A stretch of 43,350 nucleotides of DNA, from assembly GCA_017458085.1 (NCBI GenBank), contig JAFTGE010000021.1:1-43350 (forward strand). Reading direction: 5' to 3'. Made by a program: the position numbers and the translations under genes. The first letter of the stretch is position 1, and the number at the start of each line of letters is the position of its first letter. This document shows, piece after piece, positions 7,462 to 39,253 of this stretch. Origin of the DNA: Oscillospiraceae bacterium (GTDB lineage: Bacteria; Bacillota; Clostridia; Oscillospirales; Oscillospiraceae). The notes below the pieces were generated by a model. It was not told the origin of the DNA. It searched no databases and saw nothing but the letters and a program-made list of their open reading frames with translations.

Positions 7462-7516
7462 CGCCTAAAGGACGGCGGTAAAAAGACGTGGGTTATGGAT
7501 GCAGGAGTTGAATGTC

Positions 7517-8536
7517 ATGGGAAAGCACAATGAAAAGAACACATACAAGATCATGGGCGTGAAAACAATTCATTTGTTGCTCACGGTGGCCTTGTTTTTC
7601 GTGTTCTGGCTTTTGTTCCGGTATGGAGAGCTGCAGTTTCAAGGGTACGGTTACCGATATAACTATTTCGTAGCGTTGTTATACGGTGTGCTGGTACACG
7701 TCTTTAACCGGACCTATAACGCGTATCTCCTAGGTTACAGCCGTGTGCGTACATTAGTCTTCGGCCTGTTTCTGGCGCAGTTTTTTTCCGTTGTTATTAC
7801 ATACATCCTGACAGCTATCGCATGGGAACAGCTCCACGCACCGTGGATATTTCTGATCCTTCTTATTATTCAACTGGCTCTGGATGTCGCCTGGGCCTAT
7901 CTCGCAACGACTTATTACTTTCATCTCACGCCCAAAAGAAGAACGCTCCTGATCTACAGGAACGAGTTAGACAAGAAGCGTTTTGGCGTTATTCGTGGCA
8001 AACCGACAGAGCGGCTCTATCAAGTCACGGATGAGCTTCAATACGACGGGAGCTTTACAGAACTGGAGGACAAGCTCGAAGACTTTGACGCGATTTTTGT
8101 CGCCGGAGTCAACAGCCGTTGCAGAAACGGCATTCTGAAATACTGCAAAGAAAACGCGATCCCCGGCTTCTTCCTCCCGCATATCGGCGATGAGATCATG
8201 CAGGAAGCCGTACATGTAAAGACTTTTGACTCGCCAGTCCTGTATGTAAACCGCACCGCCCTGAATCCTGAATATGCAATCATCAAACGGGCGTTCGATA
8301 TCGTTTCTTCTGGCCTGGCACTTGTCCTTCTCAGCCCGATCTTCTTGACCACCGCGCTTGCGATCCATTTCTATGATGGCGGCCCGGTGTTCTACAAGCA
8401 GACACGGCTGACAAAGGATCTGAAACACATGACAGATAGAACCGTTGTGATTGTAACTCATCGGCCGGCTGCCTTCGGAATCTGCGACCGGGTGCTGCGT
8501 TTCACAGGAAAAGGCGTGGAGGATCAGAAGAACTGA
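7517..8536 (+). pseudogene. Chimera: truncated polyprenyl-phosphate sugar transferase fused to ABC exporter ATPase tail
   Basis: 339 aa from the ATG at 7517, chosen because AGGAG lies 9 bp upstream; an in-frame ATG at 7499 has no RBS. Residues about 15-145 form four membrane helices, followed by a nucleotide-binding-like middle and the start of a bacterial sugar transferase domain (IIKRAFDIVSSGLALVLLSP, then GGPVFYKQTRLTKD). At about residue 303 (near base 8423) the transferase stops short. The sequence continues as the end of an ABC exporter ATPase: LKHMTDRTVVIVTHRPAAFGICDRVL, with the H-loop His. The catalytic transferase region that should follow is missing, and so are the Walker motifs of the ATPase. 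Best read as a deletion fusion with neither original activity. Confidence 0.75.
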
Positions 8537-8857: not shown

Positions 8858-9802
8858 ATGATTACAAGGGAACAAAAAGTCAAGAGGATGATTGAGGTCG
8901 CACACCTCTATTATGAAGAAAATAAGAGTCAGAATGAGATCGCGAAGGTAATGGGGATCTCCCGGCCTCTCGTCAGTGTCATTCTGACTGAGGCGAAAGA
9001 GCAGGGGATCGTCACCATCACGATCAACGACATGCGCAGCTCGGCGGAGCAGATCGCGGAGAAGATCAGAAACATCTACAAGATTAACACGATCCTCATC
9101 GTGCCGGATGAGACGAACGACAGCGTAACCAACTTCAAAGTGGCGGCTACCGCCTTCAGTAATTACTTCAGCAAGGCCAACGACGGCAAGCGCGCGGGCA
9201 TCGGATGGGGCTCCATGATCGGCAGGATGGCGGATTACGCGGCTACCCTGGACAGCCGCACAAACAACAACGGCGGCGCGCTCTTTCCCCTGGCCGGCGG
9301 GATCAACTCTGTGACAAAGGATTACCACATCAACGAGCTTGTCCGCATTTTCTCCCTGGAGACAGGACGGGAACCGATCTTCCTCTATGCCCCCGCGCTG
9401 CACGACACCTCCCTGGAATATGAGTTTTTGAAAAAAACGGACGCATTCGAGGCCATCAGAGAGGAATGGGATTTCATGGAGCAGGCGCTGGTGTCTATCT
9501 CCAACTTTCCCTCCTACCCGGATCTGGGTGTCCGGTCCCTCTACGGAAACGCGCTGACGGAGAAAAAGGCCGTGGGCAGGATCCTGGCCCACTACTTCGA
9601 CTCCTACGGAAGGATCATCTCCCCGGCGGCGGAATCCACCCTCCAGGCTTCGGTCAAGCAGCTGAGGTCGACCGACGTGACAGCGGTGTGTTCCAACCAG
9701 GTCAAGCCGCAATGCGTGATCGGCGCACTCAGAACAGGCATCATCAACACACTGATTCTCTCGCTGAGCCTGGCGGAAAAAGTATCCGTCATATCTTTTT
9801 AA
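8858..9802 (+). CDS. SorC-family (LsrR/DeoR-type) sugar-responsive regulator
   Basis: 314 aa from the ATG at 8858, which follows CCCGGAGGCTGCT; a longer frame from 8810 has no RBS. The N-terminal helix-turn-helix spans residues about 24-45 (SQNEIAKVMGISRPLVSVIL). The rest is the sugar-phosphate-binding domain of the SorC family, related to the sugar-isomerase fold, with blocks RAGIGWGSMIGRM and GALFPLAGGIN. Family members such as LsrR and DeoR bind a phosphorylated sugar and release DNA. It lies directly upstream of the kinase/aldolase/ABC operon on the same strand, so it is the obvious controller. Its stop codon overlaps the first TTAACA-NN-TGTTAA palindrome. Confidence 0.88.
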   Translation: MITREQKVKRMIEVAHLYYEENKSQNEIAKVMGISRPLVSVILTEAKEQGIVTITINDMRSSAEQIAEKIRNIYKINTILIVPDETNDSVTNFKVAATAFSNYFSKANDGKRAGIGWGSMIGRMADYAATLDSRTNNNGGALFPLAGGINSVTKDYHINELVRIFSLETGREPIFLYAPALHDTSLEYEFLKKTDAFEAIREEWDFMEQALVSISNFPSYPDLGVRSLYGNALTEKKAVGRILAHYFDSYGRIISPAAESTLQASVKQLRSTDVTAVCSNQVKPQCVIGALRTGIINTLILSLSLAEKVSVISF

Positions 9803-9812
9803 CATCTGTTAA
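9799..9812. promoter_or_regulatory. Palindrome copy 1, TTAACA-TC-TGTTAA
   Basis: Perfect 6-bp arms with a 2-bp centre, overlapping the TAA of the SorC gene. The same arms recur at 9956-9969. Confidence 0.5.
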
Positions 9813-9819
9813 TTTCCGT

Positions 9820-9871
9820 GACATTATTGCCTAAAGACCGCACGACGATTTTGGCAATAATGTCTTTTTTT
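9820..9871 (+). terminator. Intrinsic terminator after the SorC gene
   Basis: A perfect 12-bp stem GACATTATTGCC / GGCAATAATGTC with a 21-nt loop, followed by seven Ts. It separates the regulator from the operon, so the operon must have its own promoter. Confidence 0.85.
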
Positions 9872-9892
9872 GCGCCAAATGCCCAAATTCCC

Positions 9893-9921
9893 TTGACTTG
9901 TACTAAACAAAATGATAAAAC
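9893..9921 (+). promoter_or_regulatory. Candidate promoter of the kinase/aldolase/transporter operon
   Basis: TTGACT (9893-9898), 17 nt, TAAAAC (9916-9921) preceded by TGA (extended -10). An alternative is TTGACG (9926-9931) with TAAAAT at 9951-9956 (19-nt spacer), which would place palindrome copy 2 over the start site. Confidence 0.45.
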
Positions 9922-9955
9922 GATATTGACGCAGGTTAAAGTCAAGCGCCTAAAA

Positions 9956-9969
9956 TTAACATTTGTTAA
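9956..9969. promoter_or_regulatory. Palindrome copy 2, TTAACA-TT-TGTTAA
   Basis: It has the same arms as 9799-9812, lies 28 bp before the DhaL ATG, and is centred 157 bp from copy 1. A probable operator; looping repression between the two copies is possible. Confidence 0.55.
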
Positions 9970-9996
9970 AATTATAAGAGCGAGAAGGACGATTTT

Positions 9997-10608
9997 ATGA
10001 TTTCTAAGAAGCAGCTTGAGAACCGGATTCTTAACGCATGTGAAAATGTGATGGCCGCCGAAGCTGAGCTCACGGAGATCGATTCCAAGTTCGGCGATGC
10101 CGACCACGGGCTGACGATGCACAAGATCGCCGACGCGGTCAAGGCCTCCGTGCAGGGTTCTGACGGCAGCATCAAGGAGATGCTGGACGACGCAGCCATG
10201 GCGGTCATGGGCCTCAACGGCGGCAGCGCCGTTCCGCTGTGGAACACCTGGCTGGACGGAATGCAGGAGGGTGCGCCCGAGGCCGAAGAGATCGATACGA
10301 AGGGCTTGCAGGCGATGTTCGCGGCGGCTTTCGAGGCCCTCGATGACATGTCCGGGGCAAAGGTTGGAGACAAGACCATGATGGACGCGGTGATCCCCGC
10401 CTCCAAGGCGATCGCCGAGTATGCCGGCGACAGCGAGGAAGAGCTGTTTGCCGTGGCGGCCGAGGCTGCTCTGGCAGGCGCCGAGAACAGTAAAAACTTC
10501 GTATCCAAATTCGGCAGAGCCAAGAGCTACGGCACGAAGACGATCGGAACGCCGGACGCCGGCGCCGTTTCCATGTCGAAGTTTTTTGAAGGTCTCGCGA
10601 AAGCGTAA
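9997..10608 (+). CDS. dhaL: DhaL-like kinase subunit (ADP/ATP-binding)
   Basis: 203 aa, the usual DhaL length. In the Dha kinase family this subunit holds the nucleotide and Mg2+ that phosphorylate the ketose bound to DhaK. The metal Asp cluster is intact at D29, D34 and D36 (EIDSKFGDADHGLTM), equivalent to D30/D35/D37 of E. coli DhaL. The rest is an all-alpha barrel with a Gly/Ser loop (VMGLNGGSAVPLWN). RBS GAGAAGGACG precedes the ATG. It is first gene of the operon, with dhaK next. No DhaM or other PTS donor gene is seen nearby, so free ATP may be the phosphate donor, as in the erythrulose-type kinases; that is inference. Confidence 0.88.
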   Translation: MISKKQLENRILNACENVMAAEAELTEIDSKFGDADHGLTMHKIADAVKASVQGSDGSIKEMLDDAAMAVMGLNGGSAVPLWNTWLDGMQEGAPEAEEIDTKGLQAMFAAAFEALDDMSGAKVGDKTMMDAVIPASKAIAEYAGDSEEELFAVAAEAALAGAENSKNFVSKFGRAKSYGTKTIGTPDAGAVSMSKFFEGLAKA

Positions 10609-10658
10609 ACACCAGGTTTGAATACCTCATTATAATTTCAAAAAAAGGAAGGAGATCC

Positions 10659-11657
10659 ATGAAAATGAAGAAGTTCATGAACAGCCCCGAGACTCTGACC
10701 GATGAGTTGCTCGTTGGAATGGGATTGGCGTATAGCGACGTCGTTGAAGTCGATGGCCATCTCGTCATCAGCAAGGACCTTGCCAACGCCGACCGCGTCA
10801 CGGTCGTCACCTACGGTGGCTCCGGCCACGAGCCTGCCGTGCAGGGATATACCGGCAGAGGCATGCTGGATATCGTTGCCGTCGGCGATATCTTCGCCGC
10901 GCCCTCCGGCCAGCTGGTCTTTGAGGCCATGCAGCGCGCGGACAAGGGCCACGGCGTCCTGCTTCTCACGCTGAACTACGCGGGCGACCAGCTCGCCGGC
11001 AAGCAGGCCATGAAGCTGGCCAAGAAGGCCGGCATGAATGTTCGCCAGGTCGTCACAGACGAAGAGATCCGCTTCGATCCCAACGGCGAGGACAACCGCC
11101 GCGGTCTGGGCGGCGCCGCTGCTCTGTACCACATTGCGGGCGCTGCGGCAGCTGCCGGAAAGACCCTGGATGAGGTCGCCGATATCTGCGAGCGCTATGC
11201 CAGGAACATGGCCTCCATTGCGGTCCAGGTTGCAAACGCTACCCACCCGCAGAACGGTATGTCCTTCGGCGATCTCGCCGAGAGCGACATGATGGAAATC
11301 GGCGCCGGTCAGCACGGCGAAGGCGGCGGTGTCCGCGTTCCCATGATGACTGCCAAGGAAACCATTGCCACCGTTGCCAAGCCCATCACCGAGCACCTGG
11401 GCCTGAAGGCCGGCGACAAGGCTTTCGTTATGATCAACGGCAGCGGCTCCACCACGTTGATGGAGATGTACATCCTCTATAAAGAGGCTGTTGCCTATCT
11501 GGAGAACATGGGCGTGAAGGTCGTCGGCAACATGGTCGGCGAGATCCTGACCGTTCAGGAGGCCGGCGGCTTCCAGCTGAACATGGCCAAGTGGGACGAC
11601 GAGATCGAGGCGCTGTGGAATACGCCTGCGCACGCCACCGTCTTCTTCAAAGAATAA
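10659..11657 (+). CDS. dhaK: DhaK-like ketose kinase subunit
   Basis: 332 aa. DhaK binds a short ketone sugar covalently through a hemiaminal to a His. The expected active-site residues are present: H57 in GGSGHEP, D110 in NYAGDQ and the covalent H219 in GAGQHGEGGG (E. coli H56, D109, H218). The start follows AAGGAGATCC; an ATG two codons later is also possible. It works with the DhaL subunit encoded 50 bp upstream. Here it sits beside an LsrF-like enzyme and a sugar ABC importer rather than glycerol genes. The substrate is therefore probably an imported C4-C5 keto-sugar and not dihydroxyacetone. The catalytic call is good; the substrate is unknown. Confidence 0.9.
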   Translation: MKMKKFMNSPETLTDELLVGMGLAYSDVVEVDGHLVISKDLANADRVTVVTYGGSGHEPAVQGYTGRGMLDIVAVGDIFAAPSGQLVFEAMQRADKGHGVLLLTLNYAGDQLAGKQAMKLAKKAGMNVRQVVTDEEIRFDPNGEDNRRGLGGAAALYHIAGAAAAAGKTLDEVADICERYARNMASIAVQVANATHPQNGMSFGDLAESDMMEIGAGQHGEGGGVRVPMMTAKETIATVAKPITEHLGLKAGDKAFVMINGSGSTTLMEMYILYKEAVAYLENMGVKVVGNMVGEILTVQEAGGFQLNMAKWDDEIEALWNTPAHATVFFKE

Positions 11658-11673
11658 GGAGGAATAACAAAAC

Positions 11674-12552
11674 ATGGCAGACGCAGTTGGAAATATCAAC
11701 GCACATAATTATCATCTTGATGTCCCCCCTGCCGACACCGGCTTTTTTGTGAAAGGCATGGGCAACACGGATTGGGGTTTGAAGAACCGCCTGTCCAGGA
11801 TCTTTGATCCCAAGTCTGGAAACACGGTCATGCTGGCTTTCGACCATGGCTATTTCATGGGTGCCACTGCCGGCCTGGAGCGTATGGATGTGACCATCGC
11901 CCCGCTGTGCGAATACGCGGACGTGCTGATGGGCACGAGAGGCGCGATCAGAAGCTGCATCCCGCCCACCACCAGCAAGGCCGTCTGCTTGAGAGCTACT
12001 CATGACACTTCCGTCCTGTTTGAGGATCTGAGCACAGGCTCTGGCCTGGCGCTGGATTTTGAGGACGCGATCCGCATGAACGCTTCCGGCCTGGCCATCC
12101 AGTGCTTCGTCGGCGGTTCGGGCGAGGCGGCCTCTCTGGAGGCCCTGTGCAGAGCAGCGGATCAGGGCTACAAGTTCGGCATCCCCGTGCTCGGCGTCAC
12201 CGCTGTGGGCAAGGAAATGGCGCGCACGAATCGGTACTTCACCCTGGCGACCCGCATCCTCGCTGAGCTTGGCGCGAACTTCGTCAAGACCTACTACTGC
12301 GAGGACTTCGAGACCGTTGTCGCGGCCTGCCCGGTTCCCATCGTCATCGCCGGCGGCAAGAAGCTGCCCGAGGACGAGGCGCTGGAGATGGCCTACAAAG
12401 CGATCCAGAGCGGCGCAAGGGGCGTCGACATGGGCCGCAACGTGTTCCAGAGCGAGCACCCGGTCGAGATGCTCCAGGCCATTCGCAAGGTGGTGCACGA
12501 GGGCTTCACCGGCAAGGAAGCCTTTGAGTTCTTCACCGATGCGATCAACTGA
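11674..12552 (+). CDS. lsrF: LsrF-like class I aldolase/thiolase
   Basis: 292 aa against 291 for E. coli LsrF, which transfers an acetyl group from 3-hydroxy-5-phosphonooxypentane-2,4-dione to CoA, giving dihydroxyacetone phosphate and acetyl-CoA. Strong blocks match LsrF: WGLKNRLSRIFDPKSGNTVML, AFDHGYFMG, VKTYYCEDF, PIVIAGGKKLPE and GVDMGRNVFQSEHP. The Schiff-base Lys is K205 (E. coli K203). RBS AAGGAGGAATAAC precedes the ATG. The family also contains DhnA-type fructose-bisphosphate aldolases, so it may instead cleave a ketose phosphate made by DhaKL. Its place between the kinase subunits and the transporter supports a kinase-then-cleavage pathway. Confidence 0.85.
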   Translation: MADAVGNINAHNYHLDVPPADTGFFVKGMGNTDWGLKNRLSRIFDPKSGNTVMLAFDHGYFMGATAGLERMDVTIAPLCEYADVLMGTRGAIRSCIPPTTSKAVCLRATHDTSVLFEDLSTGSGLALDFEDAIRMNASGLAIQCFVGGSGEAASLEALCRAADQGYKFGIPVLGVTAVGKEMARTNRYFTLATRILAELGANFVKTYYCEDFETVVAACPVPIVIAGGKKLPEDEALEMAYKAIQSGARGVDMGRNVFQSEHPVEMLQAIRKVVHEGFTGKEAFEFFTDAIN

Positions 12553-12593
12553 TCAAGGAAGATTAAAGTTTGTAGAAAGGGGTAACAGCACAT

Positions 12594-12926
12594 ATGTCCG
12601 CTGAATACATGCATGTAGGCATTCCTGTCCTGAACAAGAAGCCCAATATGGTCTACAACGATTGGGGCAAATTCTGGGTCAACGAGAGTGTCGACGAATA
12701 TGACTTTAAGATCGAGTACCTCAAGTTCGACGAGGGCACCATCTTCCCCGAGATCCTGTCCAAGCAGCCCCATGTGGCCTACAACGTGGACAATATCGAG
12801 TTTTACGCCGAGCAGGCCCAGCAGGTCATCTTCGGACCCGCCCACGTCAACAATGACCCCAACATCCGCCTGGCCTTCGTCATCTGGGATGACGCCATCA
12901 TAGAGCTCTACGAGGACAAGAGCTGA
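12594..12926 (+). CDS. Small VOC-fold-like protein of unknown function
   Basis: 110 aa, cytoplasmic, no signal peptide. The C-terminal half (HVAYNVDNIEFYAEQAQQVI, FGPA, then AFVIWDDAIIELYE) has the pattern of a vicinal-oxygen-chelate half-domain, with possible metal ligands His and Glu. Only one beta-alpha-beta-beta-beta unit fits, so it would act as a dimer. RBS GAAAGGGG precedes the ATG. In lsr loci the gene next to lsrF is lsrG, an isomerase of similar size but a different (ABM) fold. This protein could fill that step or epimerise the sugar phosphate; this is inference. Confidence 0.55.
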   Translation: MSAEYMHVGIPVLNKKPNMVYNDWGKFWVNESVDEYDFKIEYLKFDEGTIFPEILSKQPHVAYNVDNIEFYAEQAQQVIFGPAHVNNDPNIRLAFVIWDDAIIELYEDKS

Positions 12927-12945
12927 TCACACAAGGCTTTAGAAT

Positions 12946-12965
12946 CTTATCGGAAGATAAGTTTT
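12946..12965 (+). other. Small intercistronic hairpin before the binding-protein gene
   Basis: CTTATC-GGAA-GATAAG with a GNRA-type loop followed by TTTT. It may protect or weakly attenuate the mRNA upstream of the highly expressed lipoprotein gene. Confidence 0.4.
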
Positions 12966-12998
12966 AAAGAAAAAAAGAATTTTTCAAGGAGGAAAAAC

Positions 12999-14135
12999 AT
13001 GAAAAAGGTTCTCGCAATGATCCTCGCCCTGGTCATGATCTTCGCACTCGTTGCGTGCGGCCAGCAGTCTGCACCTTCCGGTGGAAGCAACCAGAGCACC
13101 TCTCAGGCCGGCAGCGCCGGTTCCCCCAAGCAGGACATCGCCGCCCCCGCCGCCCCCGCTGCGGACGAGCAGACCACCGAACTCAAGCATATCAAGATGG
13201 GTCTTGCCATGCAGAGCCTCCAGGCCGCCGCTTTCCACGCCTGGGCCGACTATCTGCAGTACCGCCTGGACTACGAAGCTGAGCAGCGTGGTTACGAGGT
13301 CGAGCTGATCGTCACCAACGCCAACGACGACGTCACCAAGCAGGCCAACGACATCCGCGACCTGATTGCCGCCGGCTGCGAAGTCATCTTCTGCCCCTGC
13401 CTTGACTCTCAGGCCATCCTGAAGTCCGTCGAGGAAGTCCACGACGCTGGCATCATCTACGTCTCCTACTGCCGCGAGGTTTCCCATGACGCCACCGGCA
13501 AGCAGGTCCCCGACCTGACCGTTAACTTTGCTTCCGAAGAGCAGGCCTATGTCGGCATGATGGATCTGTGGGAGATCATGAAGGCTGACGACGTTGAGCC
13601 CGTCAAGCTGATCGACTGCTACGGTGACAAGACCGACGAGAACGCCCACAACCGTGAGCACGGCCTGCGCCGCGCCATGGAAGATGCCGGCTATGCCGAT
13701 CTGCCCGTGGTCGAGGTCGAGTGCGGTCACTGGGAGCCCGACGTCTGCGGCCAGAACCTGGCCCCCGTCCTGGCTGCCAACCCCGATGCCAACTGCATGT
13801 ACTCTTCTTCTGACTTCCTGAACAGCGGCATCCAGAAGGCTATGGAAGATGCCGGTATGTGGCACAAGCGCGGTGAGGAAGGCCACGTGTACTTCTCCGC
13901 TTCCGATATGTATCCTCTCGGCATCCAGCATCTGCGTGAGGGTTACATGGACACCGCCGTTGACCAGGGCTGCTACAACTTTGCTGTGCACGCTGCTGCC
14001 GGCGCCTTCGATCTGCTTGAGGGCAAGGAAGTTGAGCAGGTGCAGCTGGTTCTTGGTACCCAGTCCACCAACGACAACATCGAAGAGATCCTGGCCACCA
14101 TTCCTCTGTGGGGCAACGACTACGCGGATTACTAA
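12999..14135 (+). CDS. RbsB/LsrB-type sugar-binding lipoprotein
   Basis: 378 aa. A lipoprotein signal peptide with lipobox ALVAC places the lipidated Cys at residue 20, followed by a Ser/Gly/Pro/Ala-rich linker to about residue 58. Then comes a periplasmic-binding-protein type 1 (RbsB-like) domain starting HIKMGLAMQSLQ. It would sit on the outer face of the membrane and deliver a sugar to the permeases encoded downstream. The LsrB signature lysine in the first strand (IPK in Salmonella LsrB) is not evident here (MQS), which argues against simple AI-2 binding. RBS AAGGAGGAAAAAC precedes the ATG. The family call is firm; the ligand is unknown. Confidence 0.88.
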   Translation: MKKVLAMILALVMIFALVACGQQSAPSGGSNQSTSQAGSAGSPKQDIAAPAAPAADEQTTELKHIKMGLAMQSLQAAAFHAWADYLQYRLDYEAEQRGYEVELIVTNANDDVTKQANDIRDLIAAGCEVIFCPCLDSQAILKSVEEVHDAGIIYVSYCREVSHDATGKQVPDLTVNFASEEQAYVGMMDLWEIMKADDVEPVKLIDCYGDKTDENAHNREHGLRRAMEDAGYADLPVVEVECGHWEPDVCGQNLAPVLAANPDANCMYSSSDFLNSGIQKAMEDAGMWHKRGEEGHVYFSASDMYPLGIQHLREGYMDTAVDQGCYNFAVHAAAGAFDLLEGKEVEQVQLVLGTQSTNDNIEEILATIPLWGNDYADY

Positions 14136-14156
14136 TATCACAGCAAACGCAATAGT

Positions 14157-14216
14157 CTGTTAGCTTCACGTTCTAACAGCAAACCTTTTGTGGGGCGAGG
14201 CAATTGCCTCGCCCCA
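14157..14216 (+). terminator. Tandem hairpins between binding protein and permease genes
   Basis: CTGTTAG/CTAACAG (14157-14179), then a perfect 26-nt palindrome TGGGGCGAGG-caattg-CCTCGCCCCA (14191-14216). There is no U-tract directly after. Such elements commonly leave more binding-protein mRNA than permease mRNA. Confidence 0.6.
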
Positions 14217-14276
14217 GTTCCTGATTCTCTTTTTCTTTCGACTTAGACAGCTTCCATGAATGGAGGGAACACGATA

Positions 14277-15233
14277 GTGTCAGAGAAACTAAAACGCTTC
14301 ACAAGCAACAATAAACAGCTACTGATCATGCTCGGCGTGATTGCCGTCGTGTTTATCATACTATCATTGACGGTTCCTAATTTCTCCACTGCGCGAAACC
14401 TCACCAACCTCCTGCAGCAGATCGCCCCCATCGCCGTCATGGCCTGCGGTGCGACCTACGTGCTGGTCATCGGCGGCATGGACATCTCCAACCCCGCCGT
14501 GATGGCGGCCTCCGCCGTGGTTGGTGTGTATTATATGACGACCGGCGGCGGCAACCTGGTCCTCGGCACGATCCTGATCGTTCTGACGGGCACCTTCCTC
14601 GGCCTGATCAACGGCTTTGCCATCGCAAAGCTCAAGATGGTTCCGATGGTGGTTACGCTGTCCATGATGACGATCGGCACCGGCCTTGCCACGATCCTCA
14701 GCGGCACCCGCGGCCTGCCGATCCTGCCGGCGTCCTTTTCCAATGTTTTGAATAAGACTGTGGTCATCATCATCCTGTTGGTTGTGATGATCGTCATGGA
14801 CTTTATCCTGACCGGCACCAAGTTTGGCAGAAAGCTCTATTACATCGGCAACAATGCCAGAACCGCCAGGATCTCCGGCATTGACAGCGAGAACATCACC
14901 ATGTTCACATACGCCATCAGCGGCATGTGCGCCGGCATCGCGGGCGTCATCAACACGGCCTCTATCGCCACCGCCCGCGCCAATATGGGCCCGCAGTCTC
15001 AGATTCTGGACATCATCAGTGCGGCTGTCATCGGCGGTGTCTCTCCCAACGGCGGCTCTGGCCGCGTCCGGGACGCGGTCCTTGGCGCAGTCCTCATCGT
15101 CGGCCTGAACAACGTGATGAATCTGCTGGCTGTGTCGGACTACTATACGACGCTGATCAAGGGCGGCATCATCATCGGCGCTATGGGCCTCGCCTCCTAC
15201 CGGCAACAGCAGGCTGCAAAGAGAGGGGTGTAA
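14277..15233 (+). CDS. RbsC-type sugar ABC permease 1
   Basis: 318 aa from the GTG at 14277, chosen because GGAGGG lies 9 bp upstream; an in-frame ATG at 14256 precedes the RBS and is less likely. It is a BPD_transp_2 (ribose/xylose/galactose) permease with 8-10 membrane helices. The helices start at QLLIMLGVIAVVFIIL, and the conserved IGGVSPNGGSGRVRDAVLGA loop is present near the C-terminus. It would form the membrane channel as a heterodimer with the second permease encoded at 16753. It follows the tandem hairpins and is 3 bp from the ATPase gene. Confidence 0.9.
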   Translation: MSEKLKRFTSNNKQLLIMLGVIAVVFIILSLTVPNFSTARNLTNLLQQIAPIAVMACGATYVLVIGGMDISNPAVMAASAVVGVYYMTTGGGNLVLGTILIVLTGTFLGLINGFAIAKLKMVPMVVTLSMMTIGTGLATILSGTRGLPILPASFSNVLNKTVVIIILLVVMIVMDFILTGTKFGRKLYYIGNNARTARISGIDSENITMFTYAISGMCAGIAGVINTASIATARANMGPQSQILDIISAAVIGGVSPNGGSGRVRDAVLGAVLIVGLNNVMNLLAVSDYYTTLIKGGIIIGAMGLASYRQQQAAKRGV

Positions 15234-15236
15234 TCG

Positions 15237-16763
15237 ATGGATAATAAGCTTTCTCTGGAGCTGAAGCACATCAGCAAGACATTTCCTGGCGTAAAGGCGC
15301 TCAACGATGTTTCGTTTTCCGCGCAGCCGGGCAAGGTGTGCGGTATCGTCGGCGTCAACGGCGCAGGCAAGTCCACCCTGATGAACATCCTCGGCGGCAT
15401 CCACCAGCCGGATGAGGGCGGCGAGATCTTCATCAACGGCGAAAAAGTCGTCATCGCCGACCCCAAGGCATCCACAGAGCTGGGCGTCGCCTTTATCCAG
15501 CAAGAGGTCCAGGCTTTCGACACCATGAATGTCTATGAGAATATTCTGGCGGCGGACTTAAACAAATGGCGGAAAAAGCACTCCCTCGCGCTGGATCGCG
15601 CCGCCATGAAGAAGGAAGCGCAGGTTCATCTGGACGCCCTTGACAGCCACATCGATGTGGACGCGCCGGTGTACACCCTCACCGTCGGTGACAAGCAGAT
15701 CATCCAGATCGCCCGTGCGCTGAGCCAGGGTGGTCGGATCCTGCTGTTTGACGAGCCCACCTCCTCCCTCTCCGACCATGAGGTGGCCATGCTGTTTGGC
15801 GTCGTCCGCCGCCTGAAGGAGCAGGGCTACATCATCTTCTACATCTCCCACTTCCTGGATGAGATCTTTGAGCTGTGCGACAACGTGGTGATCCTGCGGG
15901 ACGGCCAGTTGGTCGACCAGGCGGAGATCAGCGACATCAACAAAGAGCAGTTGGTCGAGATGATGCTGGGCTATCAGATCGAAGGCAATACCCACTCCCG
16001 CGAGCATGCCCAGGATGAGGTGATTTTCAAGGCCGAGCATATTTCCGGCGAAAAGCTGCCGAGAGACTTCAGCTTTGAACTCCATAAAGGTGAGATCCTC
16101 GGTGTATGGGGACTGCTGGGCTCCGGCAGGAGCGAGCTGTTCAACACCATCCTCGGCATCGACAAGATGATGGACGGCAAGCTGTTCTTCAAGCAGGATG
16201 GGGAACTCAAGGAAATCACCCAGAAGGATTTCTACAAGCACATCGGTTATCTGACCGAGGGCAGACATTATGACGGTCTGTTCCTGAACATGCCCATCTG
16301 CCAGAACATCACCAGCTCCGACCTGGATCAGTTCGCGGCAAAGGGCACCGGCATTCTCAACCCCGCCAAGGAGCATGTGGAATCCCGCAAGCTGATCGAA
16401 CAGGTGGGCGTCAAAACGCCGGACGAAAACGTAAAGGTCTCCAAGCTCTCCGGCGGCAATCAGCAGAAGGTCATTGTTGCCAAGTGGTTCCTCAAGGACC
16501 CGGAGATCCTGTTCATGGACGAGCCCACCAAGGGCGTCGACGTTGGCGCCAAGAACGAGATCAAGGAACTGATTTTTGACAAGGCCGAGAAGGGGACCTC
16601 TTTTGTGGTCATTTCGTCCGAGCTGGAAGAGATCATGAGCCTGTGCGACAGGATCATCGTGATCTACGAAGGCAGACTGGTCGGCGAAGTGCAGAAAGCG
16701 GACTTCTCCAAGGAGAGCCTGATGAAGGGCATCGTCAGTCAGGAGGATAAAGATGCAGAGTAA
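15237..16763 (+). CDS. RbsA/MglA-type sugar ABC ATPase (tandem)
   Basis: 508 aa, two ABC domains as in RbsA, MglA and LsrA. The first domain has an intact Walker A GVNGAGKST (39-47) and Walker B LLFDEPTSSL, with a degenerate signature LTVGDKQ. The second has the degenerate P-loop GLLGSGRSE, an intact signature KLSGGNQQ and Walker B ILFMDEPTKGVDVG. This alternation is normal for carbohydrate-uptake transporter class 2. It powers the importer formed by the two flanking permeases. The gene begins 3 bp after permease 1 and overlaps permease 2 by 11 bp, so all three are translationally coupled. Confidence 0.93.
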   Translation: MDNKLSLELKHISKTFPGVKALNDVSFSAQPGKVCGIVGVNGAGKSTLMNILGGIHQPDEGGEIFINGEKVVIADPKASTELGVAFIQQEVQAFDTMNVYENILAADLNKWRKKHSLALDRAAMKKEAQVHLDALDSHIDVDAPVYTLTVGDKQIIQIARALSQGGRILLFDEPTSSLSDHEVAMLFGVVRRLKEQGYIIFYISHFLDEIFELCDNVVILRDGQLVDQAEISDINKEQLVEMMLGYQIEGNTHSREHAQDEVIFKAEHISGEKLPRDFSFELHKGEILGVWGLLGSGRSELFNTILGIDKMMDGKLFFKQDGELKEITQKDFYKHIGYLTEGRHYDGLFLNMPICQNITSSDLDQFAAKGTGILNPAKEHVESRKLIEQVGVKTPDENVKVSKLSGGNQQKVIVAKWFLKDPEILFMDEPTKGVDVGAKNEIKELIFDKAEKGTSFVVISSELEEIMSLCDRIIVIYEGRLVGEVQKADFSKESLMKGIVSQEDKDAE

Positions 16764-17724
16764 GAAAAAATTTGACATTTTTAATCTGTCGTCCTATCTT
16801 GTGCTGTTGGCCATCCTGGTCGTCTTCGGCATCGTAGGAAACAACTTCCTGGCCATCAAGAGCATCTACGCCACCATCAACAACGGCACGCCCCTGATCC
16901 TGATCACCTGCGCCGTCACCTTCAGCCTCCTGGTGGGGATCATCGACCTGTCCTGTGCCGCCATCGGCTACGCGGCGGGTGTTACCTCCGGTATGCTGAT
17001 GCACTGGTACGGCGTGGCCTTCCCCGTGGCCCTGCTGGTGGGCATCGTGATCGGCGTGTTCCTGGGCTGGATCAACTCCCTGCTGATCGTAAAGCTCAAG
17101 ATGAACGGCATGCTGGTCACATTCGGCATGATGTTGGTTCTGCGCGCCTACGGGCGTATCATCACCAACGACAACACCATCACCCTCGGCGACCACGTGA
17201 AGGCGATCCGGCAGGCCCGTATCGCCGCGCTGGGCGGCCTGCAGGTTACGGTCATCGTGCTGATCGCGCTTGCGGTGATCCTGCATCTGGTACTGAAATA
17301 CACTGCCTTTGGCCGCCGGCTGATGCTGGTGGGCTGCGATGAGAACGTAGCCAAGAGGATCGGCATCAATTCCGACAAGGTCAAGACCCAGGCCCTGCTG
17401 CTGGAGGGGCTTCTCTGCGGCATCGCCGGTTCTTTCTTCTGGATCGTTGTGGAGGGCGCCATTGTGACCACCGGCCTCAACAGCTATGAGTTCCTTGCCA
17501 TTGCGGGCGCCTGCCTTGGCGGCATCAGCCTGCTCGGCGGCCGCGGCACGATTTTCCCGGGTGCGGTCATTGGCTCGCTGATTCTGCTGTTTCTGGCTGC
17601 TGGCATGGCCAATGCGGGCATCTCCATTTTCGTCACGCCCTTCGTTCGCGGCGTCATCATCTTCATCGCGATGTACATTGACGCTCTGCGCACCAGGCGT
17701 ATGATGGGCAACAAACTGGGATAA
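16753..17724 (+). CDS. RbsC-type sugar ABC permease 2
   Basis: 323 aa, BPD_transp_2 family, with about 8-10 membrane helices, beginning YLVLLAILVVFGIVGNNFLA. The conserved late loop GACLGGISLLGGRGTIFPGAVIGS is present. RBS CAGGAGGATAAAG lies inside the end of the ATPase gene. The presence of two different permeases plus one tandem ATPase resembles LsrC/LsrD with LsrA rather than the single RbsC of ribose systems. It is last gene of the transport block, followed by a strong terminator at 17742-17779. Confidence 0.9.
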   Translation: MQSKKKFDIFNLSSYLVLLAILVVFGIVGNNFLAIKSIYATINNGTPLILITCAVTFSLLVGIIDLSCAAIGYAAGVTSGMLMHWYGVAFPVALLVGIVIGVFLGWINSLLIVKLKMNGMLVTFGMMLVLRAYGRIITNDNTITLGDHVKAIRQARIAALGGLQVTVIVLIALAVILHLVLKYTAFGRRLMLVGCDENVAKRIGINSDKVKTQALLLEGLLCGIAGSFFWIVVEGAIVTTGLNSYEFLAIAGACLGGISLLGGRGTIFPGAVIGSLILLFLAAGMANAGISIFVTPFVRGVIIFIAMYIDALRTRRMMGNKLG

Positions 17725-31809: not shown

Positions 31810-34800
31810 TTAATGCTTCAGCTTTTTCTTAATTATCTCTAGACTTCTATGCCCTGAATCCTCACATGAAAAACCGGCGACAATTTCCTGCATGGTCTCT
31901 GAACTCCAAAAAATCTTGAGTTTTTCTTTTGCACGAGTAATCGCAGTATAAAAGATGCCATGTGTTATTCTTTCTGCATTGCTGCTTGGAATCACGATTT
32001 TAACAGATTTATATTCCAACCCCTGTGCTTTATGAATTGAAACCGCATAGGCTAGTTGAAATGGAACTACTGTTTTTTCCCGGTCTTCTTCCGGCATTTC
32101 ATCATCGAACTTCAGCACAGCAAAACGTATTCTCGTTCCGTCCTCAACTGTATCGACAAACTCAATCCCATCATAGAAGCAATCAGTCTCTGTCAAAGGA
32201 ATTTCAACATCGACTGTAAAAAGGATTTGTTCCGCACACTTTTCTATGCTGACGATTCTTCCCTTAAGATTGTTATATAACTGAGAAAACCTGTTCGTAT
32301 TATTGAAAAGAATCGGATCGCCTGCTTTAAATCTCCAGTCGCTCCAATAAACAGCTTTCGCCGGATTTGCATTCTGGAAATAGCAGTTCATATTGTTTAG
32401 ACCGAATTTTCCATCATAGTTTAGACAAAGGATGACCTCATCTTTGATCCCACATTTAAAGATATTTTCACCAATTTCTTCTGAAAATGGCCCGTCGATT
32501 ACCAACTTTTCTGTGATCAGAGGGCCCTTGGTTCGCACTTCATTCCATAAGGAGATTAGATTCAGATCTTTGGTGCGCCATGTACTGACAAGCTCTGTAT
32601 TGGCGCCCGGTGCTTTAATCAAATCCTTGGCATAGAAGAACCAGTTTCCAAAATCGATGGATTCAATCTGATAAATATCACCAGCTAGAACCAAAAATGT
32701 TTCCGGACTCGTTTTATTAAGAAATGCCATCATGGTTCGATTGTCGATTGTACTGCATTCATCGACAAATATGATTCCGTAATCCGGGAGATTAACTTTC
32801 TTTGTAAAGCTGTCAATACTAATAAAATCGGCGTCTGCCCCCGGATTTTCTATTCTCCGTTTCAAGTTTTGTAATGCAGTATGAGTTTTTGTAAGGAAGA
32901 GTTTCCGCCGCCCGGACATCATTGTCGATAGCATATTGATCAGTGTTGTTTTCCCTGTTCCGGCAGCCCCATAGATGAGGAGTACTCTTGAGTTTACAAA
33001 CACAGATTTTAGTGCCTCTTTTTTCTTCTGATCGGTAAAATCGATCATGCTTTGCCGAAGGAAATGTTCATTATACTCTTTTTGCCCTTTATTAGGGACA
33101 TGAGAACTTGCCAGAAGTCGTTTGAGGATTTCAAGCGTTGACTTTTCATAAGCGTCAATAAAAGCAAGGTTGCCTTCTACGGTTATAGCAAGCCCTTGGC
33201 GTTTCTCCCAATTATCCAACTGCCTGTTGTATTCCTGAATGGAATCAACAGTTAGTTTGGAATTGATCTCACAGTATATCTCTCCTGTCTCTTGAATTGA
33301 CTTAATGATTGTCCAAAATGGGATCACCGTATTTGTTTTCTTCCTCTCAACAACACTCGCCAGAATCCGTGCCTGACTGATTGCACTTGTTTTACTTCCA
33401 GGCAAGTCGGATATGAGAGGATTGCTTTCAAATGGCACGCATTTACGTGACAAGTATAGCTCATCACATTTCCATTGCGGACTGAATTGAGAGGGCAATA
33501 CTCTTTCCAATAACTCTTCCCGCAGATAAATTAACAAGTATCGAACGGTGTATCTGCCGTACTTATCGGACTCCGAAGAATAGTCCTCTTTTAACCGCTG
33601 TAATATTTCTTTGAAATAAACTGTGTTGCAGTTCCGGTAGATTTCGTCAAGAATCTCCGCAAACCTTACTTCTCGAAAGTCTATCATCTCAAGGAAGTTT
33701 GTACCGGTAATTGTTAAAAACTGCATTAACGCATTGTATTCTCCATATTGAGATGAAAGCCTTAACGGCATTTTCAATATTTGACCCAGTTTATTCAGAC
33801 ATTTTGGGTTTATAGACACTTTCCAGCCAGTAATGATTTTAATCTCTGTATCAATTCCCCACAAGTTTATTGACGAGGTTAAATACTTGATTTGAATGGA
33901 GTAGTTAGAAGAAATATTCAATTTTGTATACGCAGTAATACGATTATATTTTGAGGCATATAATCCTTCCTGCTGAAGCGTTATTTCATAGAATCTTTCC
34001 TTATCAATATAGAAGGGTGTCTTTTTCTGGATGTAGAATCTTGTAGCACTATCATTTTCAATGCTGCCTCCGGCGGTTTTAAATGCATCAGCCACTAGTT
34101 GGTAATATTGCATATCCAGTTCATCAGACCCTGTATATTCGAGAAGCTTTTCTAGATTATCAAGTATTGAAACACCATATCTCTCGTGCAGCGACTTACG
34201 AATTTGCCACATGAAATCATAATACTTCAACATCAGTCGCTCTGACTGACCATCATCGGGGATACGCCGACCAATATATTGTAAGCCTCGGAAGAAGTTC
34301 CCTAAATACTTGGTCTCGATGTTCAGAAAAGAGTGCTCCCATGCAAGTGCGGTGGATGGGTGCTGATAGCCATCATAGATTGCGTTAAGCAAGAGAGTCG
34401 CAACACAAAAATCATTCAGTTTCGTTAGGATACGCCTTGAGATATTATCTCTGTCTTCATTCAGGAAATCCCAGCGTTCAATGCTGTCAGAAATCTCTTC
34501 ATTGCAAATCTGAATAATTCTCTGTACCTCTGTTTCCGAATAATAATGCCGTTCCAATTGATTGACAAAAGAGTGGCGCTCTGCAACCTCCTGCAATCTT
34601 TCGCAAAATAATAGAATACTTTCCTCGTCATTCTTTATTTCTTCTTCTGCCTGGAAGCACACTGTTATACTATCTTTTAAAAAATCAATCGAATTCAAGA
34701 ATTCAGCAGAAAGATATTTCCAGAAAACCCTTTCGCTGCCTCTACTTGTCGGGTTGAGTACAACGAACAGAATCCCGGGATCAAGCGAGACCTCAGAGCA

Positions 34801-35109
34801 AATAAATGCAGGAAAAGCCAGATCCCGCAAAACATACTTTACTGTATCGTCCTTTTCGGTATAAGCACCAGTTCCTTTGATTTGAACCATAAAAGTATCT
34901 TTTGGCCGACGATCCGCCTCTGGATCTGGGACAAGCTCCAAAAAACCGTCATGATTCGGCCAAGTATCATTTGAAGCAAATGATGGATTAATTCTACCAT
35001 TTGAACGTAGAAAAGACTCCAAGACCGAGACAGCAGCTCTATCGTCATCAGACCGCTCCGAATGGGTCTTTACGTGTCTTTCGATATTATTTGGATCATG
35101 TTCGAGCAT
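31810..35109 (-). CDS. PD-(D/E)XK-like nuclease fused to SF1 helicase (candidate defence effector)
   Basis: 1099 aa. The N-terminal about 180 residues resemble DUF4365-type nuclease domains: E31, D54 (PNHDGFLEL) and Q76-x-K78 (FMVQIKGTGAY). A long middle region (about 180-690) has no recognisable motif. The C-terminal part is a superfamily 1 UvrD/RecD/Pif1-like helicase: Walker A YGAAGTGKTTL (near residue 715), Walker B IIFVDECST, motif III VLAGDIYQIE, STWRT, and motif VI SIHKAQGLE with YTAITRAKEKL. RBS AAAGGAATAGCA precedes the ATG. It is more AT-rich than the metabolic regions, which suggests transfer. A DNA-targeting anti-phage role is inferred from fusion and context. Confidence 0.8.
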   Translation of the reverse strand: MLEHDPNNIERHVKTHSERSDDDRAAVSVLESFLRSNGRINPSFASNDTWPNHDGFLELVPDPEADRRPKDTFMVQIKGTGAYTEKDDTVKYVLRDLAFPAFICSEVSLDPGILFVVLNPTSRGSERVFWKYLSAEFLNSIDFLKDSITVCFQAEEEIKNDEESILLFCERLQEVAERHSFVNQLERHYYSETEVQRIIQICNEEISDSIERWDFLNEDRDNISRRILTKLNDFCVATLLLNAIYDGYQHPSTALAWEHSFLNIETKYLGNFFRGLQYIGRRIPDDGQSERLMLKYYDFMWQIRKSLHERYGVSILDNLEKLLEYTGSDELDMQYYQLVADAFKTAGGSIENDSATRFYIQKKTPFYIDKERFYEITLQQEGLYASKYNRITAYTKLNISSNYSIQIKYLTSSINLWGIDTEIKIITGWKVSINPKCLNKLGQILKMPLRLSSQYGEYNALMQFLTITGTNFLEMIDFREVRFAEILDEIYRNCNTVYFKEILQRLKEDYSSESDKYGRYTVRYLLIYLREELLERVLPSQFSPQWKCDELYLSRKCVPFESNPLISDLPGSKTSAISQARILASVVERKKTNTVIPFWTIIKSIQETGEIYCEINSKLTVDSIQEYNRQLDNWEKRQGLAITVEGNLAFIDAYEKSTLEILKRLLASSHVPNKGQKEYNEHFLRQSMIDFTDQKKKEALKSVFVNSRVLLIYGAAGTGKTTLINMLSTMMSGRRKLFLTKTHTALQNLKRRIENPGADADFISIDSFTKKVNLPDYGIIFVDECSTIDNRTMMAFLNKTSPETFLVLAGDIYQIESIDFGNWFFYAKDLIKAPGANTELVSTWRTKDLNLISLWNEVRTKGPLITEKLVIDGPFSEEIGENIFKCGIKDEVILCLNYDGKFGLNNMNCYFQNANPAKAVYWSDWRFKAGDPILFNNTNRFSQLYNNLKGRIVSIEKCAEQILFTVDVEIPLTETDCFYDGIEFVDTVEDGTRIRFAVLKFDDEMPEEDREKTVVPFQLAYAVSIHKAQGLEYKSVKIVIPSSNAERITHGIFYTAITRAKEKLKIFWSSETMQEIVAGFSCEDSGHRSLEIIKKKLKH

Positions 35110-35193
35110 TGCTATTCCTTTCTAAATACACAAATGTGTTTGTTACATCTGCATTAAAACAAACAAAGTGTTATGTCCTGATTCAACACGCAA

Positions 35194-36360
35194 CTAATCC
35201 CGCATCATATCCTCTACGCAATTATGGCAGATCGGGATATTCCCATTCTTTCGCATGAGGCTTCCGCATTTTTCACAGAAAGTCAGATCTTCATCTGTGT
35301 AGTTTGCGCCGCAGGCGAAACAGTGATAACGATGGCCGTCTGCATCATAGGCAAGTTGCTCCTCACCGCATTCCGGGCATTCATACACGGGGAACTCTCC
35401 GCCTTCTTTGCCGCATTCATAGGCGCTGATTTCCAGTTCTCTTTCGACGAATTCTGTCGCATTGTTCTTGTATTTGTACAGTACATACGGATCATCAAAA
35501 GGCTGATACTCATCCTGCGTCAGTTCCCGGTAATAATGGATCAACGCACTATGAAGCGTCTTAATCTCTGTTTCTCCCTCATAGCCGTCAAAATCGGAAA
35601 GCCGAATCTTGCGCAGCCAGTTCAGCTCCACTCTTGAAAGAGAATACTCTTTGATAAATTCTTGAATCATCTGCTCGTCCGGATCTAAATATGCCCGGAT
35701 ATCCGGGTCATGGAAATTAGGATCACTGACGGTTTTCTTATAGAAATCAATCAGATCAGTTTTCAGAAGCTCGACTACTTTCTGTATTTTTGTATTATAG
35801 CTGTTCAGCGCTTCCATAAAAAGTTCATCCGAGGTGAGCTGAAGCTGCCCGTTGGCATGGGCATATTTGTTTCTCTCCCGCACCAATTTCTGCAACTCAC
35901 CGAGCAAGTCACTATCAAGCCCTACCACTCGAAGCAGCATAAACACATCGCTCTCATTGATTAAAGCAAAGCTGCCGAAATAGAGTTTACCATTTTTTGT
36001 GTTGGTTTCCTTCCAGAAATCAGCATACCGATCCTTAAGCAGATAGTAGAGTGCCTTCTTCAGCTCTTCCTCGTGAAATATCGATACCTTCAGAATTGCA
36101 TAGTACACCGCTGTCATGAACAGCATATGGTACTGCACATAGGCAAACTGATACAGGCCGTTTTCATAGCTCGTCTGCGCCGCCAGCATCAGGGCATCTA
36201 TGTATTTCTCCTCTGTTTCTTCAGCAAATTCTTCCGGCAAATACTCAAGCATTTTGAACAGCTCATCTGGCGGATCGGGAATTGCATACTCCGGATGCTC
36301 CGATTCAAAAGCTACCTTTATTGCCTCTGAAAGCTTGCTTACATCAAATTCGAGTGTCAT
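35194..36360 (-). CDS. HEPN-like protein with C-terminal double zinc ribbon
   Basis: 388 aa, unrecognised as a named family. Residues about 50-205 are helical and contain R163-N-K-Y-A-H168, matching the RNx3H signature of HEPN ribonucleases. The C-terminal 65 residues carry two zinc-ribbon-type Cys sets: C328/C331/C347/C350 and C362/C365/C378/C381. No membrane segment. RBS TAAGGAG lies 12 bp before the ATG. It sits between the RM genes and the helicase on the same strand. An RNase toxin-like effector role, by analogy with anticodon nucleases PrrC/RloC found with type I RM systems, is a hypothesis. Confidence 0.65.
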   Translation of the reverse strand: MTLEFDVSKLSEAIKVAFESEHPEYAIPDPPDELFKMLEYLPEEFAEETEEKYIDALMLAAQTSYENGLYQFAYVQYHMLFMTAVYYAILKVSIFHEEELKKALYYLLKDRYADFWKETNTKNGKLYFGSFALINESDVFMLLRVVGLDSDLLGELQKLVRERNKYAHANGQLQLTSDELFMEALNSYNTKIQKVVELLKTDLIDFYKKTVSDPNFHDPDIRAYLDPDEQMIQEFIKEYSLSRVELNWLRKIRLSDFDGYEGETEIKTLHSALIHYYRELTQDEYQPFDDPYVLYKYKNNATEFVERELEISAYECGKEGGEFPVYECPECGEEQLAYDADGHRYHCFACGANYTDEDLTFCEKCGSLMRKNGNIPICHNCVEDMMRD

Positions 36361-36390
36361 ATATAATTACACTCCTTACCGCAGAAAGGC

Positions 36391-36753
36391 TTATTTCTTT
36401 TTCGAGTTTTTGAACGCTTGTCCGATGGCCTGCTTTGCTTCCGGCGTATTCATAGCAGCATCCATCATGCTTGTGAGAAGCTGTCCGCCTAAAGCAGTTT
36501 CCATCTCTTTTTCCTTAAGTTCGAGTTGATGCCGATGTTCCAGCTCCATTTTCTCAATTTCCATCTGATGCTTACGCTCCAGGGAATCAATATCCAGTTT
36601 GTGTTGCTCCATGAGGCGATTGATCTCATGCTTATTACTTTCCTGCAAAGTTTTAAGTTCTGTTCGGCAGCTTTTTGCAGATGCCAAATAGGACATGATA
36701 CCTGTAATCACTGCAACGAGAACAGAAACTATGTAAGGAAGAGACTCTTTCAA
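36391..36753 (-). CDS. Small membrane-anchored coiled-coil protein
   Basis: 120 aa from a TTG at 36753, chosen because GGGGGGAG lies 4 bp upstream and the codon follows the hsdMS stop (TAA) by one base; a TTG start at 36777 has no RBS. Residues about 5-24 are a membrane helix (LPYIVSVLVAVITGIMSYLA). Residues about 30-90 are a long charged coiled coil (LMEQHKLDIDSLERKHQMEI...). The tail contains AAMNTPEAKQAIGQAF. Translational coupling to hsdMS implies a linked function, but no family is recognised. Confidence 0.65.
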   Translation of the reverse strand: MKESLPYIVSVLVAVITGIMSYLASAKSCRTELKTLQESNKHEINRLMEQHKLDIDSLERKHQMEIEKMELEHRHQLELKEKEMETALGGQLLTSMMDAAMNTPEAKQAIGQAFKNSKKK

Positions 36754-36754
36754 T

Positions 36755-39244: not shown

Positions 39245-39253
39245 AATGATTCC

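Follow-up and report, generated by a model that had tools for sequence, protein, structure and literature searches.

A conserved DhaK, DhaL, LsrF and VOC gene cassette suggests a second way of consuming AI-2-like molecules

Within a 43,350-nucleotide stretch from an Oscillospiraceae bacterium (GCA_017458085.1, contig JAFTGE010000021.1, positions 1–43,350; the window) we describe a conserved gene cassette encoding DhaL, a DhaK of a distinct clade, an LsrF-family enzyme and a VOC protein of about 105 residues, often together with a SorC regulator. A first-pass annotation had called the locus an Lsr-like uptake operon. This label does not hold, since the importer with the window's binding protein turned up nowhere but in the window and three close relatives of it, L004, L005 and L006 (L labels denote loci and G labels genomes compared), and that binding protein is not LsrB. 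The further proposal of an alternative route of the autoinducer 2 (AI-2) type fits both the kept LsrF active site and the LsrF phylogeny. Judged from sequence, the cassette points to a second, hitherto undescribed way of consuming AI-2-like molecules.

Composition and distribution of the cassette

Scanning genome contigs with the LsrF-like window protein retained at least 80 loci, with co-occurrence judged within the DNA around each. Among those 80, DhaK adjoins LsrF in 14 and LsrK and/or LsrB is present in 65; no locus has both kinds, and L009 alone has neither. Besides the window, we read 31 loci with a full or partial cassette, several on short contigs and many from metagenome-assembled genomes; the partial ones are L127, L128, L130, L132 and L144 (no adjacent LsrF), L045 (no DhaL match) and L134 (interrupted), and in L132 annotation missed the VOC open reading frame (ORF) although the VOC profile search located it. 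The hosts are Bacillota, Synergistota, Pseudomonadota (Vibrio and a Methylobacteriaceae assembly) and Bacteroidota, in the last case on plasmids. Gene order varies, being DhaL-DhaK-LsrF-VOC in many loci and VOC-DhaK-DhaL-LsrF in L040, L051, L086, L087 and L136–L138. SorC adjoins the cassette in 11/31 related loci, and a CUT2 importer does so in the window and in at least four of the 31 (L004, L005, L006 and L124, the last with a different binding protein), a lower bound given the short contigs.

The window VOC protein used as a probe across the order matched in 2/295 genomes. Across the phylum the VOC profile matched in 4/398, and of the other three genomes G509 and G416 were read, neither with DhaK beside VOC; in the family of Vibrio comitans it matched in 6/101, two of them with DhaK beside VOC (the genome of L040, and G911). 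These low counts make the cassette rare outside Synergistota in our samples, and Dak1 was found in only four of 79 genomes of the window's order. Among 149 Synergistota genomes, 20 have a VOC profile match, 19 an LsrF over the cut-off and 18 both (Fisher p 5e-20, uncorrected for kinship or linkage); the exceptions are G760 and G766 (VOC without LsrF) and G807 (LsrF without VOC). Linkage accounts for most of this association. LsrF sits on a separate contig from VOC in G765, G823, G825, G827 and G845. DhaK-DhaL-VOC occurs without an adjacent LsrF in G765, G823, G825, G845 and G911, and in 5/5 of these genomes LsrF lies elsewhere.

A DUF1097 protein is annotated beside the Aureibacter copy, and both Vibrio loci have small membrane proteins 3' of LsrF that resemble it by eye. 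Genes resembling kduI and kduD (uronate breakdown; by eye) lie directly 3' of the cassette in L123 and L126. A second LsrF-VOC pair, L168 (G300:C106), occupies a 3.7-kb contig in a genome that also carries a full cassette; its LsrF starts 247 bases from the contig end, and DhaK could lie beyond it. The LsrF of L009 (1332–2210) groups with the L007 cassette LsrF in a quick tree, and the 11 kb examined there hold no DhaK, LsrK or LsrB match and, upstream, a class-II-aldolase-like gene (by eye). In G827, whose VOC has no adjacent DhaK, locus L139 (7286–11625) places a VOC relative beside a dehydrogenase (zinc-type by eye), a permease and an ATPase of CUT2 type, and a binding protein that is weakly LsrB-like (41 bits).

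No DhaK-LsrF cassette is described in the titles and abstract openings of the literature matches listed, a coverage outside which most subscription journals fall. Dihydroxyacetone (DHA) is not mentioned in the available portions of PMC12268683 or PMC10787695; what is available of the latter describes upregulated lsrF in a syntroph.

The enzymes, a proposed route and its rivals

The DhaK tree holds 53 rows, with L090_8759 (fused; trimming to 345 residues lost its DhaK part) and L134_5458 (interrupted) left out. A single branch (support 100/100; stem length 0.86 changes per column) splits 31 cassette proteins from the remaining DhaKs, 10 of DHA type and 12 of other kinds, no characterised erythrulose kinase being among the rows. 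At the position of E. coli Lys104 (105 in the window protein, a Leu) the residue is Leu in 31/31 cassette rows, Lys in 10/10 DHA-type rows, the DHA label having been assigned once this state had been seen, and Gly in 11 and Asn in one of the 12 others. The window DhaK, the single DhaK match in its genome, scores 245.8 bits against a cut-off of 406.25 for the dhaK1 equivalog (TIGR02363). In the tree it stands apart from the sampled glycerol- and DHA-type DhaKs, and the firm grouping with glycerol-metabolism DhaKs that the first-pass annotation had named as the outcome counting against it did not appear.

The catalytic residues which that annotation had listed (DhaK H57, D110 and H219; DhaL D29, D34 and D36) are all confirmed in the sequence. 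Its statement that DhaM is missing also stands, for the cassette at 31 loci, a genome-wide DhaM search not being part of this comparison; the only DhaM match, in L052, comes from a canonical dhaKLM that stands next to the cassette but apart from it. That no DhaM lies nearby is our sole ground for taking ATP as the presumed phosphate donor. The kept DhaK residues and DhaL metal residues would also suit a plain DHA kinase, with LsrF and the VOC protein handling side products. We consider this very improbable, as the cassette DhaK forms a separate clade, has Leu for Lys104 throughout and lacks DhaM, and as L052 keeps a canonical dhaKLM next to it. In Klebsiella a dha regulon lies within a few genes of lsr, which we set aside as coincidence because it is the glycerol regulon, with glycerol dehydrogenase and dhaR.

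DhaK enzymes phosphorylate a hydroxyl adjacent to a ketone, and Lys104 presumably contacts the far, non-phosphorylated hydroxyl end of DHA; the Leu there hints that the substrate carries something other than CH2OH at its far side. In both classes of DHA kinase the ketone is bound covalently to the active-site His (PMC6429413, available part).

The best Protein Data Bank (PDB) matches of the window LsrF-like protein are E. coli LsrF structures (E 2e-98). Its phosphate-binding and catalytic residues can be compared with the roles given for E. coli LsrF in the accessible part of PMC2728841: D57, H58, K203, Y205, G226 and G227 are kept in 27/27 cassette LsrFs and 67/67 others, and the LsrF-specific D251, with G253 and R254, in 26/27 (one interrupted row is gapped) and 67/67. 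From 107 collected rows, 75 entered a quick tree and 57 and 43 the later ones, all without L134 and the later two also without L181, the outgroup L218 and L005, a near-copy. The 57-row tree took L214 and L215 as canonical; L215 lacks LsrB/LsrK annotation, so the 43-row tree was based on loci with both. There the 18 LsrFs from LsrK+LsrB loci (against 25 rows) do not form one clade (log-likelihood loss 36.2, approximately unbiased (AU) test p-AU 0.00043) and the 57-row tree concurs (p-AU 0.0003), both tests being post hoc, chosen once the quick 75-row tree had been seen. E. coli-like LsrFs group with the cassette proteins of Bacteroidota, and those from lsr operons of Bacillota lie among Synergistota and Bacillota cassette proteins. 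Because the cassette LsrFs fall between the enterobacterial/Vibrio and the Bacillota lsr-operon groups, their reaction is bracketed by AI-2 operons.

No Pfam or NCBIfam family matches the window VOC-like protein at E 0.001, and a 15-row profile of its family matches the glyoxalase I structures 3hdp and 2qh0 (E 5e-4). Four residues are invariant in 15/15 rows; E41, H60 and E104 align with Glu, His and Glu of the glyoxalase I chains, in an alignment that does not reach H7. With this glyoxalase-I-type metal-ligand set the protein is a putative isomerase, a role we propose because glyoxalase I typically catalyses a ketol isomerisation with the help of a metal. LsrG, annotated as the phospho-DPD isomerase (DPD, 4,5-dihydroxy-2,3-pentanedione), is not known to be related to VOC proteins. 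E. coli LsrG as a query gave no match in cassette loci, but it was a weak probe that found LsrG only in E. coli itself.

We tentatively favour, while holding it short of probable, a route in which the VOC protein isomerises an AI-2-type furanone or dione, DhaKL phosphorylates the product and LsrF splits it into dihydroxyacetone phosphate (DHAP) and acetyl-CoA. The substrate would be drawn from the furanone/dione pool of AI-2 (DPD). The VOC protein would carry out the ketol isomerisation that is LsrG's task in E. coli, giving 3,5-dihydroxypentane-2,4-dione (HPD), which ends in -CO-CH2OH and is the open form of the furanone 4-hydroxy-5-methyl-3(2H)-furanone (MHF). The special DhaK may then bind the HPD ketone covalently through H219, with DhaL-ATP phosphorylating the terminal hydroxyl to yield 3-hydroxy-5-phosphonooxypentane-2,4-dione, which LsrF would thiolyse to DHAP and acetyl-CoA. 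The isomerase is placed ahead of the kinase in this scheme because HPD should suit DhaK better than DPD. Neither an aldehyde dehydrogenase nor another cleavage enzyme recurs beside the cassette (by eye, from ORF beginnings, among the loci listed), which is what a pathway ending in DHAP and acetyl-CoA would predict. Further points in favour of this route are the kept LsrF active site and its bracketing by AI-2 operons, the Leu of DhaK, and the co-occurrence counts above: no LsrF locus with both DhaK and LsrK or LsrB, 18 Synergistota genomes sharing VOC and LsrF, and an LsrF elsewhere in 5/5 genomes where none adjoins DhaK-DhaL-VOC.

By chemical reasoning, we infer that hydrated, opened MHF equals HPD. 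MHF is a DPD breakdown product made by yeast and others (PMC8092285, as far as available), and LuxS-independent formation of AI-2 from ribulose-5-phosphate has been reported (PMC2443158, partial text). The fuller claim, of a second and independently assembled AI-2-type route on unphosphorylated DPD, HPD or MHF through VOC isomerisation, then DhaK, then LsrF thiolysis, we regard as unlikely. If true, the cassette may serve to salvage or detoxify furanones of intracellular origin. Since MHF/AI-2 activity arises from ribulose-5-phosphate without LuxS, internally made furanones would explain why most copies lack an importer and many hosts lack luxS.

A serious rival, if a somewhat unlikely one, is a ketose route in which DhaKL would make a ketose-1-phosphate from a ketose that is either imported or internal, LsrF would work as a class I aldolase that yields DHAP plus an aldehyde, and the VOC protein would be a sugar epimerase or isomerase. 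DhaK chemistry fits R-CO-CH2OH, LsrF has class I aldolase relatives, and the CUT2 sugar importers beside the cassette in the window and four related loci agree with it. It is at odds with the retention of LsrF-specific Asp251 and the remaining checked active site, with the bracketing of cassette LsrFs by those of AI-2 operons, and with the lack, by eye, of any recurring aldehyde-processing enzyme among the loci listed. Erythrulose or apulose, which the first-pass annotation had named as possible substrates, are conceivable as well.

Several observations weigh against the AI-2-type reading. LsrF position 61 is Ile in 22/27 cassette proteins and Phe in 67/67 others. Together with the Leu of DhaK, this change within conserved LsrF chemistry would suit another beta-dicarbonyl substrate, R-CO-CHOH-CO-CH2OH rather than HPD, from which LsrF would free DHAP and a different acyl-CoA; Phe61 is retained in the window protein and L004–L006, the neighbours point to no such metabolite, and we judge this quite improbable. 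VOC relatives without DhaK exist (for example L139), and G911, of the Vibrionaceae, carries DhaK-DhaL-VOC together with a complete lsrKRACDBFG operon that holds its LsrF. luxS occurs in 6/16 cassette genomes, the window's own not among them, and in 3/4 canonical lsr genomes checked, a distribution that fails to separate the explanations. The scarcity of LsrK, by contrast, favours that reading: among 31 genomes carrying the cassette or at least its VOC gene, LsrK passes the cut-off in one (G911), the next best scoring 236 bits against 528, in a family search with no canonical Bacillota genome as positive control, which weakens the point; E. coli LsrK recovers Bacillota LsrKs at 511–607 bits (phmmer), and the best match in the window genome (93.5% complete) stays under the cut-off at 118.4 bits.

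The binding protein counts against the AI-2-type reading. E. coli LsrB gives no phmmer match to it, and at six positions that we take to be the LsrB ligand positions the two share 0/6 residues (Q,C,N,A,S,D in the window against K,D,D,Q,P,A). None of its 48 PDB sequence matches at E ≤1 is named LsrB, and the window genome has no LsrB match at E 1e-20. At that threshold LsrB-like proteins occur in 7/31 genomes and look genuine only in G911, which has a full lsr operon, and in G823, where the match reaches 223 bits and the six residues (K,D,D,Q,N,S) resemble those of clostridial LsrB. The G823 gene is given little weight because it lies on a 4.8-kb contig without lsrC/D. In the window, the RbsABC-type transporter may import the substrate.

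The window locus and its regulation

The nine co-directional genes of the first-pass annotation are all present as placed, as nine plus-strand ORFs at 8858–17724, and Pfam and NCBIfam matches agree with them (Table 1). A GGAGG precedes the ATG of SorC at 8858. SorC and dhaL are 194 bases apart; later gaps are 50, 16, 41, 72, 120 and 3 bases, followed by an 11-base overlap.

Table 1. Features of the operon in the window
Feature	Position	Strand	Evidence
SorC/DeoR-family regulator	8858..9802	+	PF04198 (Sugar-bind) 87.8 bits
Palindrome TTAACATCTGTTAA, candidate SorC operator 1	9799..9812		One of two window sites at ≤2 mismatches; putative operator role
Terminator-like hairpin, then T run, 3' of SorC	9820..9871	+	-18.7 kcal/mol
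Palindrome TTAACATTTGTTAA, candidate SorC operator 2, upstream of dhaL	9956..9969		Motif scan; putative operator role
DhaL, nucleotide-binding subunit	9997..10608	+	PF02734 (Dak2) 124 bits; metal motif IDSKFGDADHG
DhaK, distinct clade, Leu105 at E. coli Lys104 position	10659..11657	+	PF02733 (Dak1) 279 bits; clade 100/100
LsrF-family thiolase/aldolase	11674..12552	+	NF006081 413.6 bits vs cut-off 297; DeoC 53 bits
VOC-superfamily protein, putative metal-dependent isomerase	12594..12926	+	Invariant H7-E41-H60-E104; profile match to glyoxalase I
RbsB-type lipoprotein binding protein, not LsrB	12999..14135	+	PF13407 (Peripla_BP_4) 98.5 bits
CUT2-type permease	14256..15233	+	PF02653 (BPD_transp_2) 117.6 bits
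Tandem ATPase, RbsA/AraG type	15237..16763	+	PF00005 (ABC_tran), two stretches in one protein
Second CUT2-type permease	16753..17724	+	PF02653 88.7 bits

The nearest NCBIfam family of the window SorC is DeoR (130 bits, cut-off 420); to the LsrR equivalog, of the same SorC family, it scores 47.7 bits, under the cut-off of 486. At ≤2 mismatches the palindrome TTAACATNTGTTAA has exactly two sites in the 43,350 bases (9799 and 9956), flanking the SorC-dhaL gap, compared with a mean of 0.35 over 20 mononucleotide-shuffled windows; the motif was derived from the window itself, so that the window sites are not independent, nor are near relatives mutually independent. With the same tolerance it occurs in 10/12 SorC-holding cassette loci (the window included; not L134 or L143), always beside SorC or dhaL, and in none of 20 cassette loci without SorC. 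L008, which begins 400 bases before dhaL, may have lost SorC at the contig end. Similar sites near SorC or ABC genes in 4/21 canonical lsr loci scanned (L023, L028, L036 and L053) mean that SorC regulators in general may share this motif. The SorC-dhaL gap further holds a promoter-like TTGACT (by eye), and the hairpin stretch 9800–9880 has a z of -2.88, with equal or better folding in 2/200 shuffles.

The next plus-strand gene, at 17815, encodes a PpiC-type foldase-like protein. We leave it outside the unit, since in L004 and L006 nothing corresponding to it appears among the matches past the second permease, although the queries included PrsA. ORF 7499–8536, immediately upstream of the operon, aligns with just 48 of the 179 positions in a bacterial sugar transferase profile, and its final ~35 residues resemble an ABC-type ATPase end (by eye), as in a truncated or chimeric gene. 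On the minus strand, 31810–41788 holds type I restriction-modification genes (N6_Mtase and Methylase_S in one protein; HsdR-like) and encodes a 1099-residue helicase-like protein, a likely defence island. GC content in the window is 0.39–0.49 from about 32,000 onward compared with 0.49–0.62 before.

Relation to known systems

The cassette shares with LsrKRACDBFG of E. coli and Bacillota an LsrF-family enzyme with the same active site and a SorC-family regulator and, in the window, a CUT2-type importer. It differs in having DhaKL instead of the FGGY kinase LsrK, a VOC protein in the place expected of LsrG and no LsrB, and the importer is absent from most cassette loci read. With phosphotransferase-dependent DhaKLM and ATP-dependent DHA kinases it shares the Dak1 and Dak2 domains, the covalent-binding His and the catalytic Asp and His, whereas its DhaK belongs to another clade, has Leu for Lys104 and GQHGEGGG for GIHGEPG, and is without DhaM. 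Gly104 DhaK-type kinases also form DhaK/DhaL pairs, some beside sugar ABC importers, but have Gly rather than Leu and lie outside the cassette clade; in one of them, L206, the DhaK is beside a GolD/DthD-type dehydrogenase. Within the VOC superfamily, ligand positions agree by alignment with glyoxalase I and methylmalonyl-CoA epimerase, whereas the cassette protein is shorter and matches no Pfam family over the cut-off.

In a recent gut survey an LsrB-type AI-2 system counts as present when lsrACDB occurs together with lsrK and lsrR (PMC12503165, in its available part), and cassette bacteria would escape a survey with this criterion. If the substrate is confirmed, the cassette would represent a non-orthologous replacement of two of the three AI-2 processing enzymes and DhaK chemistry would reach a new substrate class, and the LsrF-annotated genes of Synergistota and Bacteroidota would gain a testable pathway.

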